Below, piece by piece: positions 43,634 to 52,294 of a stretch of 64,000 nt of DNA. How positions within the stretch are numbered: the stretch's first letter is position 1; each line of letters opens with the position of its first letter. The position numbers and the translations under genes are program-made. The notes under the pieces were generated by a model. The model saw nothing but the letters and a program-made list of their open reading frames with translations, ran no database searches and had not been told where the DNA came from. The stretch covers positions 1 to 64,000 of the forward strand of contig NZ_SCVC01000046.1 of assembly GCF_004297405.1 (NCBI RefSeq). Reading direction: 5' to 3'. The stretch is from Reyranella sp. Its GTDB lineage: Bacteria > Pseudomonadota > Alphaproteobacteria > Reyranellales > Reyranellaceae.

Positions 43634-43845
43634 CACGCCCAGACCATTTACGCCACAGCATCTTTCTCTAGCCGCAAAGCCTATAAGTGACTGTACCACA
43701 AAGGTTTTCTCCAGTTTAACCCATCCCTGCCCTATCCTCTCAATACCTTACGATTTTCGCTCTCGTGCTTCCCCCCTGCTTCCCCGGCCTCCGCCGAAAA
43801 CCCGGGGAAGCAGTACGAATCGTGTGGTCTTTGAGGAAACGTATT
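43634..43845. other. Element left end and integrase leader
   Basis: AT-richer DNA between the tRNA fragment and the integrase start. It ends in the strong ribosome site TTGAGGAAAC before ATG 43846. It probably contains the integrase promoter and arm sites, but I cannot assign individual boxes. Confidence 0.4.
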
Positions 43846-45198
43846 ATGGGTAAGATTACCAAACGTGCAGTAGACGCGCTTCAAGCCGAACCTGATCGCG
43901 ACGTGTTCGTGTGGGATGCGGAGTTGAGAGGCTTCGGAGTTCGCGCGAAGCCATCGGGAGTGAAGACCTTCCTCATCCAGTACCGAAACATGGAAGGCCG
44001 GACCCGCCGCTTGGTGCTAGGGCAATACGGCGTGCTGACGCCCGAGAGCGCACGCCACCTCGCCCGCAAGAAGCTCACCGCTGTAGCGGAGGGCGCCGAC
44101 CCGGCGGCCGACCGCCAGGGCGTCCGGGTCGGCATGTCGGTCAAGGAAGTGTGCGATTGGTATTTGGAACAGGCTGAAGCCGGCCGTCTCCTCGGTAGAA
44201 ACCGCCGGCCGATCAAGGCATCGACACTCAAGAGTGACCGAAGCCGGATCGAAACGCACATCAAGCCCTTGGTCGGTGTCCGGCTCGTAAGCCGCCTCAC
44301 TTTGCACGACATCGAGGGAATGCAGGCGGATATCGCGGCAGGAAAGTCGGCTCGCGGACGTAAGAAGGGTCGCGGTGGCCGGTCAACTGGGGGACCCGGC
44401 GTCGCTAGCCGAGCGATCAGCACACTACGGGCATTGCTCGGCCACGCCACTCGTGTCGGCGTCATTAGCAAAAATCCTGCGGAAGGCGTCCGGCAGCTGG
44501 CAGTCGGCAGCCGCAAGCGACGGCTGAGCGAAGACGAAATCCGTCGTCTCGGACGCGTGATGCGCGAAGCTGCAGCCGAAGGTGAGCATCCGACCGGTCT
44601 CGCTGCTATCCGGCTCATGCTCCTGACCGGTTTCCGACGGATGGAGGTGCTGGGACTAAAGCGGCCGTGGTTCAGTCGGAGCGATCACTGCATTCGCTTT
44701 CCTGACACCAAGAGCGGCGAACAGGTCCGAGCGCTTGGAGAAGCTGCGATGGACTGTATTGAAGCCCAGCCCACCCGTGGGGGTTCTGTCTTCGTCTTTC
44801 CGGCCGACTGGGGCGACGGGCATTTCATTGGTGTCGTCCGCGTACTCGACCGTGTTTGCCGGAAGGCGAAACTTGGCGGCGTGACCCCGCACGTGCTCCG
44901 CCATACCTTCGCTAGCGTTGCAGGCGACCTTGGCTTCTCCGAACTTACGATAGCCGGTTTGCTTGGACACTCCGCGCACGGCGTCACGCAAAGGTACGTG
45001 CACCTGGATACGGCCTTAGTCGTTGCGGCTGACAGGGTTTCGATGGAGATCACAAAGATGCTCGGATCCGAAGAGCCGATAGGTAAACCATCCAACATCG
45101 AGTACGTTGCTTTGCAGCGGGAAGACGCGGCACCGCAGCCAGTCGAGGACTTCAATTTCTCCTCGCTGACGATCGATTTCACTCATAGACAAAGGTGA
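43846..45198 (+). CDS. Tyrosine recombinase/integrase
   Basis: A 450-residue P4/phage-type integrase. An N-terminal DUF4102-like domain (KRAVDALQAEPDRDVFVWD) is followed by a core-binding region and the catalytic domain: R264 (LTGFRRMEVL), K290, H349-x-x-R352 (TPHVLRHTF), H375 and nucleophile Tyr384 (TQRYVH). All catalytic residues are present. It integrates the element at the adjacent tRNA-Gly. ATG 43846 follows GAGGAAAC; the upstream open frame is not used. It is transcribed into the element. Confidence 0.93.
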   Translation: MGKITKRAVDALQAEPDRDVFVWDAELRGFGVRAKPSGVKTFLIQYRNMEGRTRRLVLGQYGVLTPESARHLARKKLTAVAEGADPAADRQGVRVGMSVKEVCDWYLEQAEAGRLLGRNRRPIKASTLKSDRSRIETHIKPLVGVRLVSRLTLHDIEGMQADIAAGKSARGRKKGRGGRSTGGPGVASRAISTLRALLGHATRVGVISKNPAEGVRQLAVGSRKRRLSEDEIRRLGRVMREAAAEGEHPTGLAAIRLMLLTGFRRMEVLGLKRPWFSRSDHCIRFPDTKSGEQVRALGEAAMDCIEAQPTRGGSVFVFPADWGDGHFIGVVRVLDRVCRKAKLGGVTPHVLRHTFASVAGDLGFSELTIAGLLGHSAHGVTQRYVHLDTALVVAADRVSMEITKMLGSEEPIGKPSNIEYVALQREDAAPQPVEDFNFSSLTIDFTHRQR

Positions 45199-46683: not shown

Positions 46684-49149
46684 TCACGCAGTCTGCGGCG
46701 ATGCGCCTGCGAGTGGGCGGCCAACACTCTGAATCGCATCGAAAAACAGCCGCGGGCTGCCCCAGAGCGAGTTGATGAAGATCGCCGTCACGCTCACCGC
46801 CATCGCCACCATTGCCCAGACAGGATGGATCAGGCCCGTCGCCGCGAGCGGGATGCCCGCGCCATTGAACAGAAAGGCCAGCACGACGTTCTGGACCATC
46901 TTGCGGTAGCTGCGGCGGCTGATGTCCCGCGCTTCAGGAAGGGCACTGAGTTTGTTGGACAGGATGATGATGTCGGCCGCCTCGATGGCGATATCGGTGC
47001 CGCCGCCCATTGCGATGCCAATGTCAGCCTGCATCAGGGCGGGAGCATCGTTGATGCCGTCGCCAACCATCGCAACCCGGGCGTCCGCCTGAAGCTCCCG
47101 AACGATGGCCGCCTTGCGCTGGGGCAATATGCCGGCATGGACTTCATCGACGCCCACCTCGCGGCCCACCCGTTGCGCCGCGCGTTCGTTGTCTCCGGTC
47201 ACGAGGACGGTCGAGAGGCCGGACTTGCGCAGGCTGGCGACGGCTTCGATCGCATCCGGCCGCAGCGTGTCCCCTACAGCGACAATGCCCAACGCTCGCC
47301 CTTTGTTCGCGACGGCAATCACGGTCCGCCCCGCCGCCTCGAGTAGTTCTATTCGCTTCTGAAGGAGCGAAAGGTCGATGTTCCGTTCGATGAGGAAGCG
47401 TGGGCTGCCGACGATAGCCTCGCTACTGCCGATTTGAGCGACAACGCCCTGTCCTGGGAACGCCTGGAACGAAGCCACCTCGGGCGGTGTAACACCGCGT
47501 TCAAACGCTGCTTTGACGACAGCCTGGCCGAGCGGATGCTCGGAAGAAGCTTCCACCGCGGCCGCAATGGCCAGGAGTTCGGCTTCGCTTCCTCCGGCCG
47601 TTTCGACCTCGCGAACCGTGGGGCGGCCTTCGGTCAGCGTACCCGTCTTGTCCAGGATGATCTTCCTTACGAGCCTGAACCCCTGAAATGCTTCGCCGGT
47701 TCGCATGAGGATGCCCCTTTCGGCGGCCTGCCCCGCACCGCGCACGATGGAAAGTGGCGCGGAAATGCCCACGGCGCAGGGGTAACCCATCACCAAGACA
47801 CTGAGGCCGGCAAAGACTGCGCGCTCGATGTCGATTTGCCCGGTAGCGAGCCACGAACCGGCAAGCCATCCGACAAAGGCCAACGCCGCGATCACCAGGA
47901 CCGCCGGCGTATAGACCCGCAGCACGCGGTCGATGAGATGGAGGATGCCGGGCTTCAACGCCCGCGCATCCTCGACATGGCGGATCACCTGATGAAGGAA
48001 GCTACCTTCCCCCACAGCCGTGATGGTCACCAACAGCGTGCCCGTGCCATTGATCGATCCACCGATCACTGCGTCCCCCTCACGCTTCTCGACGGGGACG
48101 GCCTCGCCGGTCACCAGAGACTGGTCGACGCCAGAATATCCGTTGACCACGGTGCCGTCGGCCGGGATGCGTTCCCCTGGACGAATTCGCACATGCTCGC
48201 CGAGCTCTACGTCCTCGATCGGAACTTCAAGCTCCTGGCCGGCGCGCACGACTCGCGCCGTTTCGGGCTGCAGATCAAGCAGACGCTTCACGGCCTGCGA
48301 ACTGCGCGTCTTGACGATGAGTGAGAGCCACTCCGAGAAAATGTGGTAAGTGCCGACCATGACCGAGACGGCAAAGAAAGCTGCGGTCGGATAGTCAGGT
48401 CGATCCAATACCAATCCGATGACGCCGCCCGCCATGCCGGCGAAGGCGCCGATTTCCAGCAGGACGTGCTGGTTGAGGATGTCACGCCGCAGCGCCTGGA
48501 CGGCCATATGCAGGATATGCCTGCCCACTCCGAAGATCAGCACGACGGCCAACGCGCCAGCCAGCCAGGGCGCGGCGCGCGTTAGGTGTCCTGTCAGGTT
48601 GAGATAGAGCAGCGACAGCGCCATGACCGTGAGGCCCGTCGCGGCGCCGATCGCGATCCACAAACCGGTCGATCTAAGGACGAGGAACACGAACCCGCCG
48701 AGGCTGAGGCAGACCAGCGCCGGCAGAAAGCCGATCCAGCCAACCGTTGGGTCAGCGATGATAGGGATGGCCGCAACGCTGAGGATCACCGCGAGCACGA
48801 ACCGCCGCGCTTCGTGCACGAGATCGCGCTCTTCGTCTTCGAAGGCGCGAAGCTTGCGCGGATCGGAGATCGTGTAGCCGATGTCCCGCAAGGTTTGCAG
48901 CAGACGCTCGGGACGCGCGACCGCCGGATCGTATTCGACGAGCGCCTGTTCGTGCGTGAGGCTTACCGCCACCTTGTCGACGCCCGGCATGCGGCCGAGT
49001 GCCTTCTCGATGGTGCCGGTGCACAGCGAGCAGTGGAGGCCGCCAATGCGGGCTCGGATCTTCCGGCGATCGGGGCGGCTCGACGGCTCTTCACTCCAGG
49101 GTTGGAAAGAGGATTGAGCCAGAGTTGCGTTTGTCATTGCTTGCACCAT
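46684..49149 (-). CDS. P1B-type heavy-metal ATPase with a YPC motif
   Basis: An 821-residue metal exporter. An HMA domain carries CSLC (C40, C43); eight membrane segments are expected; the actuator has TGEA (347-350); the transmembrane metal site in helix 6 is MGYPCAVG (Y456-P457-C458) instead of CPC or SPC; the phosphorylation motif is D500KTGTLTEG; SSEHPLG and GDGINDAPAL follow. Metal specificity cannot be taken from canonical P1B rules because of the tyrosine. The operon order HMA protein, ATPase, MerR, thioredoxin, CcdA suggests one metal-response module. The start is ATG 49149, or ATG 49137. Confidence 0.9.
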   Translation of the reverse strand: MVQAMTNATLAQSSFQPWSEEPSSRPDRRKIRARIGGLHCSLCTGTIEKALGRMPGVDKVAVSLTHEQALVEYDPAVARPERLLQTLRDIGYTISDPRKLRAFEDEERDLVHEARRFVLAVILSVAAIPIIADPTVGWIGFLPALVCLSLGGFVFLVLRSTGLWIAIGAATGLTVMALSLLYLNLTGHLTRAAPWLAGALAVVLIFGVGRHILHMAVQALRRDILNQHVLLEIGAFAGMAGGVIGLVLDRPDYPTAAFFAVSVMVGTYHIFSEWLSLIVKTRSSQAVKRLLDLQPETARVVRAGQELEVPIEDVELGEHVRIRPGERIPADGTVVNGYSGVDQSLVTGEAVPVEKREGDAVIGGSINGTGTLLVTITAVGEGSFLHQVIRHVEDARALKPGILHLIDRVLRVYTPAVLVIAALAFVGWLAGSWLATGQIDIERAVFAGLSVLVMGYPCAVGISAPLSIVRGAGQAAERGILMRTGEAFQGFRLVRKIILDKTGTLTEGRPTVREVETAGGSEAELLAIAAAVEASSEHPLGQAVVKAAFERGVTPPEVASFQAFPGQGVVAQIGSSEAIVGSPRFLIERNIDLSLLQKRIELLEAAGRTVIAVANKGRALGIVAVGDTLRPDAIEAVASLRKSGLSTVLVTGDNERAAQRVGREVGVDEVHAGILPQRKAAIVRELQADARVAMVGDGINDAPALMQADIGIAMGGGTDIAIEAADIIILSNKLSALPEARDISRRSYRKMVQNVVLAFLFNGAGIPLAATGLIHPVWAMVAMAVSVTAIFINSLWGSPRLFFDAIQSVGRPLAGASPQTA

Positions 49150-49164
49150 GGGATGCGACGATCG

Positions 49165-49380
49165 CTACTCGTGGCCGACGATACGAAAGCCAGCATCGTG
49201 AACCAGTGCGACAAGACGATCTTCGGTTACGGCCTGCGGATCGAAGAGGATGCGGGCTTCCGCCTGTGAGAAGGAGACGGCAGCTGCCTGCACGCCAGGT
49301 AGTTTCTCGGCGAGCGCCTTGATCCTGCCGGCGCAAGCATCGCAGTTCATCCCTTCGATCTTGAATGTCGCGGTTTTCAT
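49165..49380 (-). CDS. Small HMA-domain metal chaperone (MerP/CopZ-like)
   Basis: A 71-residue ferredoxin-like HMA protein with GMNCDAC (C13, C16). It lacks a signal peptide, so it resembles CopZ rather than periplasmic MerP. It would hand a soft metal to the ATPase encoded 15 bp downstream. Confidence 0.88.
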   Translation of the reverse strand: MKTATFKIEGMNCDACAGRIKALAEKLPGVQAAAVSFSQAEARILFDPQAVTEDRLVALVHDAGFRIVGHE

Positions 49381-49727: not shown

Positions 49728-50057
49728 CTACGTCGAACGCGGGCCGAAAAGAATGATGGATGCCCCGACAAGAACCACGGCGGCTCCAACTATGTCCCAG
49801 CGATCGGGCCGCGCTCCCTCTAGGAACCAGAGCCAGGCAATAGAGGCCGCTACGTAGATACCGCCGTAGGCAGCATAGGCACGACCAGCATAGTCAGAGT
49901 CGATCAGGGTCAGTAGCCAGGCAAACGCGACCAGACTGACGATACCCGGCAAAACCCAGACTGGCGACTTGCCGCTCCGCAGCCAAACCCAGAAAGCAAA
50001 GCAACCAGCAATTTCCGCGAGTGCCGCACCCGTATAGATCAAGAGAGCTTTGGCCAT
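49728..50057 (-). CDS. YnfA/UPF0060 family small membrane protein
   Basis: A 109-residue protein with four hydrophobic helices. It has the family features [38 protein letters not shown] and [14 protein letters not shown]. Related proteins are implicated in small-multidrug-type efflux; the role here is unknown. It follows the second merR by 16 bp. ATG 50057 is chosen because it starts the family N-terminus. Confidence 0.88.
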
Positions 50058-50073: not shown

Positions 50074-50583
50074 TCACTTGATGCGGTGCCGTGACCGCGC
50101 GCCGCGTATGGAGGTCGGACTCTTAGCTGGACCAACGCCTGTCCTGCGAACTGTTGTGGGCAAAGCTGCCTTCGTCCTGGGTGCCGCCAGGGCTTGCAGC
50201 AGCTGGCATTCGGGCACCGTGGTGCCCGCGCAGGAACGGACGAGGTCCGACAATACACGTTCCATCCGACGCAGGTCGGCGAGCTTTGTGCGCACCTCCG
50301 CCAGATGCGCGATAGCCAGCTCTCGAACCTCGTCGCAGGTATTCGCCTTGCGATCGGCAAGGCCCAGTAGCCGTCGCACGGCATCGAGCTTGAATCCAAG
50401 GTCTCGCGCCTGGCGGATGAACGACAGCCGCTCGACATCGGAGGCGTCGTACAGCCGGTAGCCGCCCAAGGAGCGTTCCGGCTTACGCAAGAGCCCTTCC
50501 GTCTCGTAGTAGCGGATGGTTTCAGCCAGCACGCCCGAGCGTTTGGCGAGGACGCCAATTGGGATCATCCCTGGAGTGGTCAT
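50074..50583 (-). CDS. MerR-family regulator (MerR-like metal sensor)
   Basis: A 169-residue MerR protein with winged helix ([19 protein letters not shown]) and three Cys at 83, 118 and 126, similar to the Hg-binding Cys82/117/126 of MerR, and a 40-residue basic tail beyond the usual end. It diverges from the merT-like gene and shares with it the operator at 50609-50639, so it probably controls the organomercury genes. ATG 50583 is used; ATG 50568 is also possible. Confidence 0.85.
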
Positions 50584-50608: not shown

Positions 50609-50639
50609 TTGACCTTGTAGTTCCTACAAGGTCTAGGCT
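50609..50639 (+). promoter_or_regulatory. MerR operator/promoter of the merT-merB-like operon
   Basis: TTGACC (50609-50614), 19-bp spacer, TAGGCT (50634-50639). The spacer contains a perfect dyad ACCTTGTAG-TTC-CTACAAGGT (50612-50632), with arms of nine bases. Long spacer plus dyad is the MerR hallmark. Confidence 0.85.
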
Positions 50640-50648
50640 TGCCAAACC

Positions 50649-51041
50649 ATGACTGATTTTCACAACACACGCGCTTCGACGCCGCGGGCGGAGACTGGGC
50701 GCGACGCCGCCAAGACGACCTTGGCCACAGGCGCGCTTCTGGCGGCATTCGGCGTCGCATCCTGCTGCGCGCTGCCGGTCGCGCTCGCCGCGCTCGGGAT
50801 CGGCTCGGCCGGCCTGTTTGCAATCGCGGCACTGGTCGGGCCTTATCAACTCCATGTCCTGGCCGCGGCGGTCATCTGCCTCCTCGGCGCAGCCGTGCTC
50901 ATGTGGCGTCAGCGCCGTGCGCGGGCCTGCGGCGCTGCAGGTCCGCGCAGCCGGCCGGTCCTCGACCGCATTAGTCAGGTCGCCCTCGTGCTGGCACTCG
51001 GGTTGCTGGCCCTCACCTTCTGGATGGAGCCGCCGCTATGA
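50649..51041 (+). CDS. MerT-like mercuric transport protein
   Basis: A 130-residue inner-membrane protein with three hydrophobic helices. The first contains the SCCALPVALAALGIG motif (C39, C40), as in MerT. MerT's second, cytosolic Cys pair is reduced to a single C94, so ion transfer may differ. It is led by the MerR promoter and overlaps the next gene (ATGA). Confidence 0.82.
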   Translation: MTDFHNTRASTPRAETGRDAAKTTLATGALLAAFGVASCCALPVALAALGIGSAGLFAIAALVGPYQLHVLAAAVICLLGAAVLMWRQRRARACGAAGPRSRPVLDRISQVALVLALGLLALTFWMEPPL

Positions 51042-52294
51042 CACCGATCCTGGAGTCGACACTGACTTGCCCGGACTGTGGCACGCAGGCGGTCGAGACC
51101 ATGCCGACGGATGCATGCCTCTACTTTTACATCTGCACCGGGTGTGGCAGCCGGCTCAAGCCCAAGCACGGGGATTGCTGTGTCTTCTGTTCCTATGGGT
51201 CGGTTCCCTGCCCGCCAATCCAGATGGGCGACGGGAACGCATGCTGCGCCGCTGAGCCGACAACCGTGGTCCCGGAGGTTTGCTCACTGCAACCGGCCGC
51301 ATTCCATGAGCGAATGGCCGAAATCGGAGCGCTTGTGCAGGCCTACGGCGGCGTCGCGGAACGCACGCCGGGCGGCGTAGTGTTGCGTTTCAAGGTGGGA
51401 GAAGGTTTGCTTGGCGCGCTCGATGTGCTCGCCGAGAAGGAGCGCTCATGCTGCGCGACTCTCAAGTTCACGGTCACGGAAGAAGCTGGCTCGATCTCAT
51501 TCAGAATTGGCGGTCAGGCTTCCGATAGCACGGCGATCGAGGACTTGGCGGCGCGTCTCGGCGTTGCGCCTCTTTCGGGCGAGCTGCGTGCCGGCGTGCG
51601 CCGACCGGACTGGTCGAGGATGACTCTTCCGAAGGCTCGCGAAGTCCTGCAGCGCAGGCTTGCCGCGCATCCCTCAGGCGTAGATGGCTGGGCAGGATTG
51701 GACGAGGCCGAGGACAAGGCTCTAACAGCCATCCTGCGCCACTTTGCGGATCATGGACGAGGCCCATCGATCGAGGATGTGGCTGGTACAAGCGGCCAGC
51801 CTCTCGATACCGCGCGGCGCGCGCTGGAGACGTTGCGCAAACGCGATCTTGTCGTCCTTAACGAGTCCGGCGCAGCGATCCTCGCGGCCTACCCTTTCGC
51901 CGCCTACCGCACCGGTCATCGCGTTACTCTTCACGGTCAAACTGTGGACTCCCTGTGTGCGATTGACGCGCTGGGCACTGGCGCGATGTGCCGGACGGAA
52001 ACGACGATCAGCTCTGAATGCGCCCACTGCGGGAAGCCGATTTATATCGCGACGTCGAGTAGTGGCACGACGCTGGCAGCGGTCGAGCCCAGGACGGCTA
52101 TTGTCTGGTATACCTTGGCATTCGAGGGCTGCGTCGCCCAAAGCCGTTGCCCCAGCACGGTGTTCTTCTGCGATGACGATCACTTGGCGGCATGGCGCTC
52201 TAGCAGCGCGCAATCGGCCGGCGACCGGCTCACGGTGGAGGAAGCACTGGAGATCGGCATCGCCTTGTTCGAGCCGTTGCTGAGATTGGCCTGA
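51038..52294 (+). CDS. GDCCVxC - CC domain - MerB fusion (organomercurial lyase-like)
   Basis: One 418-residue frame with three parts. Residues 1-62 are a GDCCVxC domain (G45-DCCVFC, C47, C48, C51) with CxxC pairs at 11/14 and 33/36. Residues 85-160 contain ERSCCATLKFT (C138-C139). Residues about 220-418 match MerB: a winged helix, then CAID (C307, D310), ECAHC (C328, structural) and QSRC (C371). These equal the MerB C96, D99, C117 and C159 pattern, so lyase activity is likely. The fused domains might sequester or pass Hg(II). It is coupled to merT by a 4-bp overlap. Confidence 0.82.
   Translation: MTPILESTLTCPDCGTQAVETMPTDACLYFYICTGCGSRLKPKHGDCCVFCSYGSVPCPPIQMGDGNACCAAEPTTVVPEVCSLQPAAFHERMAEIGALVQAYGGVAERTPGGVVLRFKVGEGLLGALDVLAEKERSCCATLKFTVTEEAGSISFRIGGQASDSTAIEDLAARLGVAPLSGELRAGVRRPDWSRMTLPKAREVLQRRLAAHPSGVDGWAGLDEAEDKALTAILRHFADHGRGPSIEDVAGTSGQPLDTARRALETLRKRDLVVLNESGAAILAAYPFAAYRTGHRVTLHGQTVDSLCAIDALGTGAMCRTETTISSECAHCGKPIYIATSSSGTTLAAVEPRTAIVWYTLAFEGCVAQSRCPSTVFFCDDDHLAAWRSSSAQSAGDRLTVEEALEIGIALFEPLLRLA

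Follow-up and report, generated by a model that had tools for sequence, protein, structure and literature searches.

The window, i.e. the whole stretch of 64,000 nucleotides of a Reyranella sp. contig that was analysed, carries a metal-related gene cluster with, on the plus strand, a single gene in which a GDCCVxC domain, a second cysteine-bearing domain (henceforth the CC domain) and a complete MerB module are joined. The features of the cluster and of the fusion are as follows.

46684..49149, minus strand: heavy-metal P-type ATPase, a candidate for Hg(II) export, with an HMA domain at its N-terminus (TIGR01525, 553 bits, cut-off 346)
49165..49380, minus strand: HMA metal chaperone (MerP/CopZ-like), candidate partner (all models below their own cut-offs)
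49728..50057, minus strand: gene for a small membrane protein of the YnfA/UPF0060 family, located behind merR (PF02694, E 1.5e-31)
50074..50583, minus strand: divergent MerR-family regulator gene, 169 aa (best NCBIfam model TIGR02051 MerR)
50609..50639, plus strand: MerR-type promoter/operator, TTGACC, 19 bp with the dyad ACCTTGTAG/CTACAAGGT, TAGGCT
50649..51041, plus strand: gene for a merT-like membrane protein of 130 aa with an ASCC motif (MerT matches below cut-offs; ATGA overlap with the fusion)
51038..52294, plus strand: triple-fusion gene GDCCVxC - CC domain - MerB (single ORF, ATG start, 418 aa)
51056..51226, plus strand: GDCCVxC domain (NF041374), residues 7-63, with cysteines 11, 14, 27, 33, 36, 47, 48, 51 and 58, all kept in three fusions
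51275..51571, plus strand: CC domain, residues 80-178, with invariant C82 and C138-C139; predicted helix-strand-strand-helix-strand-strand-helix
51584..52291, plus strand: MerB module, complete (residues 183-418), made up of an HTH-like N-terminal part and the catalytic domain
51956..51967, plus strand: C307 and D310 (C96 and D99 of R831b MerB)
52019..52021, plus strand: C328 (C117 of R831b MerB)
52148..52150, plus strand: C371 (C159 of R831b MerB)

The three-part architecture had been proposed in the initial annotation, together with a complete MerB active site, and both proposals are borne out, the former by the profile scores and by the recurrence of the CC domain elsewhere. Residues 7-63 match the NCBIfam family NF041374, GDCCVxC domain-containing (seleno)protein, well above its cut-off (E 1.5e-27, 95.6 bits, cut-off 40), the motif itself reading GDCCVFC (residues 45-51), and residues 288-412 match Pfam PF03243 (E 1.2e-26, 93.6 bits, gathering cut-off 27), the fusion being the sole PF03243 match of the whole window genome. 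C307, D310, C328 and C371 are all present, align with the MerB signature residues C96, D99, C117 and C159 in the R831b numbering used in PMC8261052, and are invariant in 12/12 alignment rows and nearly invariant in a second alignment (made without L133, which has an internal stop, and L131, removed alongside). The AlphaFold model of the fusion (mean pLDDT 81, pTM 0.67) contains the MerB fold, superposing on 5c17 (MerB2) with Z 22.3 and rmsd 3.0 over 205 aligned residues and on 3f2f (MerB) with Z 19.9 and rmsd 3.1 over 196. Compared to MerB of R831b, the fusion is alike in its catalytic residue equivalents, fold (Z 19-22 to crystal structures) and HTH-like N-terminal part, but is extended at the N-terminus by 182 residues that form two cysteine-rich domains, and its genome has no MerA above cut-off. 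The curated NCBIfam MerB models were missed (NF009710, 62.7 against a cut-off of 193; NF033555, 57.6 against 200), as they also were by 6/6 other clade members checked, and SaoL (NF040728), a MerB-like organometallic lyase by its NCBIfam name, reached 57 bits, far below its equivalog cut-off of 140. That the fusion is an organomercurial lyase is well supported by sequence and structural model. Residues 59-82 have a pLDDT <50 and, at a pTM of 0.67, the two halves of the protein make no defined mutual contact in the model.

The start of the fusion gene lies within the stop codon of the merT-like gene (ATGA), an overlap that is kept in two further records of the fusion, L079 and L080. The MerT-like protein scored 26.5 with PF02411 (cut-off 32.9) and 30.6 with NF010314 (cut-off 150). 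A 19-bp spacer with a dyad is the layout of MerR-family control, and this operator has 0-1 mismatches in 5/5 close loci (L079, L080, L012, L013, L014) and 8-11 in eight more distant ones. The divergently transcribed regulator reached 121.2 bits with TIGR02051, below the cut-off of 150.85; it is below every metal-specific cut-off, and the scores of the MerR, Zn-type, CueR and CadR/PbrR models all fall inside a range of 18 bits. For the mer operon of pMR68, a dyad of a like type, GCACCTGTAGCCGCTACAGGTTG (CTGTAG..CTACAG), has been reported, and the operon, cloned with its merA, reportedly conferred mercury and phenylmercury resistance and volatilization in E. coli (PMC3737084); the pMR68 MerB and the MerB module of the fusion share 42% identity. 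A canonical broad-spectrum mer operon likewise resembles the window in its MerR-type promoter (19-bp spacer, dyad) and divergent merR-family gene, and differs in that the window is without merA and that its MerR- and MerT-like proteins fall below the curated cut-offs.

The HMA chaperone and ATPase genes are found about 2 kb from the fusion. Copies of both lie beside the fusion in L079 (HMA 91% identical, ATPase 97%, the latter cut by the end of the stretch) and beside a GDCCVxC-CC gene in L041 (70% and 84%, respectively), and no ATPase was found in the 16 kb around the fusion in genome G044 (L040). The window ATPase (46684-49149) carries YPC (MGYPCAVG) at the motif, which in heavy-metal pumps is usually CPC. 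A tyrosine-recombinase-like integrase borders the metal cluster in the window (43765-45198) and, the same by eye, in G044 (L040:9576-11090), which is without the ATPase stretch that in the window separates the integrase from merR.

Other fusions of the three domains were looked for and found, each as a single ORF, in L079 (87% identity), on a contig binned as Hyphomicrobiales, and in L080, the G044 contig (81% over residues 1-417), G044 being one of 76 genomes of the same order that were searched. A GTDB scan with a MerB-plus-CC alignment, from which the best 80 of 424 relatives were taken, gave these same two. No other full-length fusion was among the matches listed in a class sample of 385 genomes (E <= 1e-20, up to four candidates scored per genome). 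Spread of the fusion by plasmids or phages was considered and rejected: of 415 PLSDB records with a match, none spans 80% of the fusion query, the CC domain alone had no PLSDB match at E 0.01, and a pattern scan of IMG/VR gave no relative. A second kind of fusion was suspected in L201, a 464 aa open frame with a long MerB, and discarded, its N-terminal part being Arg/Pro-rich, without a Pfam match at E 0.1 and likely non-coding. The three fusions share every one of the 14 cysteines in residues 1-180, and also seven cysteines of MerB. For the pairs window-L079, window-L080 and L079-L080, dN/dS was 0.06, 0.04 and 0.07 in the GDCCVxC domain, 0.20, 0.44 and 0.60 in the CC domain, 0.27, 0.31 and 0.36 in the N-terminal part of MerB and 0.19, 0.27 and 0.26 in its catalytic part; with 0.04-0.07 against 0.20-0.60, the GDCCVxC domain is therefore tightly and the CC domain loosely constrained.

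The CC domain had no Pfam, NCBIfam or PDB match at E <= 0.01, the best being DUF6975 (E 0.06) and NapD (E 0.11), and its C82, C138 and C139 are invariant in 7/7 rows. It is predicted to fold in the same way within the full model and when modelled alone (pLDDT 78.6, four rows), and the best solved structure, VIA at Z 6.7, does not reach the level of a clear match. Two known folds were tried for it, NapD and LAGLIDADG-type arrangements (Z about 6), and neither is a clear match, the latter being taken as no more than a widespread arrangement. Ten of 385 genomes, the window genome included, gave a CC-domain match at E <= 0.01 among the candidates scored in a profile search (up to 13 per genome). 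The five best matches outside the window (E <= 1.1e-4; L188-L192) are small single-domain proteins, about 100-136 aa long, that share the Cys...Cys-Cys pattern and match no Pfam/NCBIfam model at E <= 0.01, and a MerR-family gene adjoins the CC gene in 5/5 of them; among the four weaker ones, the L193 frame looks non-coding. This neighbourhood places the CC domain in metal or toxicant responses, and the finding points to an unannotated three-cysteine domain family adjoining MerR-type regulators. A YnfA/UPF0060 gene, found behind merR in the window, adjoins the CC gene in two of the five (L189 and L191), and this shared CC/MerR neighbourhood may link these uncharacterised small membrane proteins functionally to the CC domain or the regulator.

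Against the PDB, the GDCCVxC domain retrieved zinc-ribbon-like proteins only (E 0.64 or worse). By eye, it is a small free protein in most of 45 loci, whereas in the fusion it is joined to CC and MerB. A review of 2026 (PMC13188914) lists the family (NF041374) under the name GOS_B, as a hypothetical protein, and the term GDCCVxC had no match in the open literature searched; the fusion makes this common yet uncharacterised family a possible mercury-handling module. Among the GDCCVxC loci, L107 (Jiella) has the operon merB-merT-HMA-GDCCVxC followed by an NAD(P)/FAD oxidoreductase without a Cys-Cys pair (L107:5676-7253), a PLSDB 'vanR' prediction between the cation transporter and GDCCVxC genes of that operon (L223:4475-4675) looks false, and MerA-like frames of 33-34% identity are found near GDCCVxC in L072 and L073.

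The initial annotation had no MerA in view, and this can be extended to the whole genome. A profile search of the window genome (98.8% complete) gave no TIGR02053 match above the cut-off, at the locus or elsewhere, and its five best-scoring oxidoreductases are without the C-terminal Cys pair; by their motifs, we take these best MerA candidates to resemble dihydrolipoamide dehydrogenase, glutathione reductase and similar oxidoreductases. In a census of 76 genomes of the same order, MerB was present in 10 and MerA above cut-off in eight. All four MerBs that are fused to or beside GDCCVxC (G000, G044, G073, G046) are in genomes without MerA above cut-off, that of G046 being an 81% complete draft that may miss genes. 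Five of the other six MerB genomes have MerA (G007, G023, G025, G030, G075), and the sixth, G006, has none and a MerB-like protein that by eye is without the full residue set; G058, whose merB is cut by the contig end, also has no MerA above cut-off. Among the best 80 of 424 MerB loci, MerA (at least 60% identity, flanks up to 4 kb) was found in 74, and the six without a nearby MerA are exactly the six with GDCCVxC; these loci are related, and the six-of-six pattern is therefore not a probability. A general rule that GDCCVxC replaces MerA held in these best 80 loci but was broken by a phylum sample of 398 genomes: its nine non-window MerB loci, some on stretches that end at contig ends, comprised two with MerA and GDCCVxC, three with MerA only and four with neither. 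Because of the two loci with both and the four with neither, GDCCVxC is not a general MerA substitute. Moreover, two MerA genes above cut-off, one with MerB on the same chain, are present in the L079 MAG, and three genomes with MerA carry GDCCVxC-CC in a form not joined to MerB.

Taken together, we propose that the fusion may be an organomercurial lyase that is active and carries its own thiol relay, in which the freed Hg(II) would be passed to thiols of the same chain, as a substitute in cis for NmerA/MerA, and exported by the nearby ATPase, a reading whose chances of being right we judge to be about even. Organomercurials would enter the cytoplasm, where C307, D310 and C371 would, judging by residues and fold, cleave the C-Hg bond as in MerB; the bound Hg(II) would be pulled off by the vicinal thiols C47-C48, C69-C70 and C82 with C138-C139, and then be handed to the HMA chaperone and the heavy-metal ATPase, or to glutathione. 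Expression would be driven from the divergent promoter by the MerR-family regulator, with mercury as its putative inducer. A role of the N-terminal half in holding or relaying Hg(II) is plausible given the conserved vicinal cysteines and the mer-type operon. Counting for this reading are the MerB residues and fold, the related MerB and the like dyad of the pMR68 operon, the 14 conserved cysteines, the low dN/dS of GDCCVxC and the distribution of MerA and GDCCVxC among loci. Counting against it are the phylum sample, the MerA genes in the L079 MAG, the three genomes that have GDCCVxC-CC and MerA, the presence of a merT-like importer, which in a setting without MerA makes sense only if the Hg(II) is bound or exported, the lack of an ATPase in the 16 kb around the fusion in G044, the loose dN/dS of the CC domain, the missed MerB equivalog cut-offs and the absence of contact between the halves in the model.

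There are precedents for a MerB joined to a mercury-handling partner. MerBA fusions, present in 60 of the best 80 of 424 MerB loci, are common in alphaproteobacteria, and it has been speculated that the joining speeds Hg(II) transfer (PMC11227200). The present fusion shares with them the wider MerB clade, but its partner is N-terminal and, by sequence, non-catalytic (GDCCVxC-CC), while in MerBA it is a C-terminal MerA reductase; here the chain ends with MerB at residue 418 and bears no MerA core. The N-terminal cysteine pair of MerA (NmerA) is reported to take Hg(II) from MerB (PMC4525700), and residues 1-182 might work in a like way, an analogy between thiols that would take Hg(II) from MerB; they are without an HMA-domain match and are attached to MerB, whereas NmerA is attached to MerA. 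While MerB and its joining to MerA are known, the joining of MerB to GDCCVxC-CC is new within the literature searched: no report of a GDCCVxC-MerB or CC-MerB fusion, nor one of the triple fusion, was found in open literature at the level of titles and abstract starts. In a census of 84,032 genomes, 906 of the 1,795 MerB-bearing ones were without MerA (PMC8261052), and the same paper asks how MerB turns over without MerA and what becomes of the Hg(II), knowing of no reported activity in a MerB-only organism. The fusion is a concrete, one-gene and assayable candidate answer to this question. More broadly, it may exemplify a MerA-independent organomercury detoxification, in which a built-in relay (GDCCVxC plus the new CC domain) would strip Hg(II) from the active site and feed it to a heavy-metal ATPase, and so be one missing mechanism of MerB-only genomes, a suggestion that is tentative and that we consider somewhat doubtful.

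Several alternatives have to be weighed. One, possible but on the unlikely side, is that MerB is functional and the N-terminal half is a thiol buffer in its own right or a chaperone of the merT-like transporter, the joining only fixing stoichiometry or co-localising the enzyme. In 14/20 same-order loci examined, GDCCVxC has merR and merT-like genes at a distance of up to 1.5 kb and no MerB, and the disordered linker (59-82) and modest pTM agree with the lack of a defined interface in the model. Set against this, the same-order MerBs tied to GDCCVxC sit in MerA-less genomes, and such ties are found at four places in a MerB tree built from eight other rows and 35 of the 80 loci (L143, with an internal stop, was dropped): the fusion clade with L081; L107/L109; G046; and L149.

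The substrate or inducer might instead be a soft metal or organometal other than mercury (tin, lead, arsenic), the MerB fold being reused as in SaoL-type lyases, which we regard as unlikely. The regulator, with four models within 18 bits, fits such a reading, as do the weak SaoL match, the MerT-like protein below the MerT cut-offs and the nearest MerBs of the tree (L081, L107, L109), which are likewise without a nearby MerA. Yet the wider MerB clade is found in merA or merBA operons (74 of the best 80 of 424 loci), and the same type of operator is reported for the mercury-resistance operon of pMR68 (PMC3737084).

As to how the chain came about, the parts are separate in relatives: GDCCVxC-CC is found without MerB in G030, G007 and G032, GDCCVxC is followed by merB in G046 and, as far as the contig reaches, in G058, and in G073 a GDCCVxC-CC gene and a distinct merB gene share an ATGA overlap. 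The fusion therefore probably arose by joining of operon neighbours, as judged from these gene arrangements. The MerBs of the three fusions form one clade (100/99), to which the MerB of G073 is sister (100/99), and the parts apparently became one chain once, the direction being inferred. The ATGA overlap of G073 means that a small change could join the genes, and the joining could in principle be a neutral read-through without functional consequence. We consider this very improbable: the frame is open in three records (the others at 81-87% identity to the window), dN/dS is <1 in every domain (0.04-0.60) and the fusion MerBs are that single well-supported clade.

A sequencing or assembly artefact, which the initial annotation had named as a ground for refutation, is rejected as practically negligible, since the fusion stands as one ORF, in the same frame and with different codons, in three assemblies made separately, on contigs that measure 275 kb, 381 kb and 12.9 kb. 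Homologues without the first two domains, the other such ground, do exist (78/80 MerB frames), yet they fail to refute the fusion, being on other branches or, in G073, having those domains encoded just upstream. Elsewhere among the MerB loci, L219:2737-4605 has a 5'-truncated MerB in frame behind what by eye is a DNA methyltransferase-like part, near a contig end, and is probably a recombination product or chimera.
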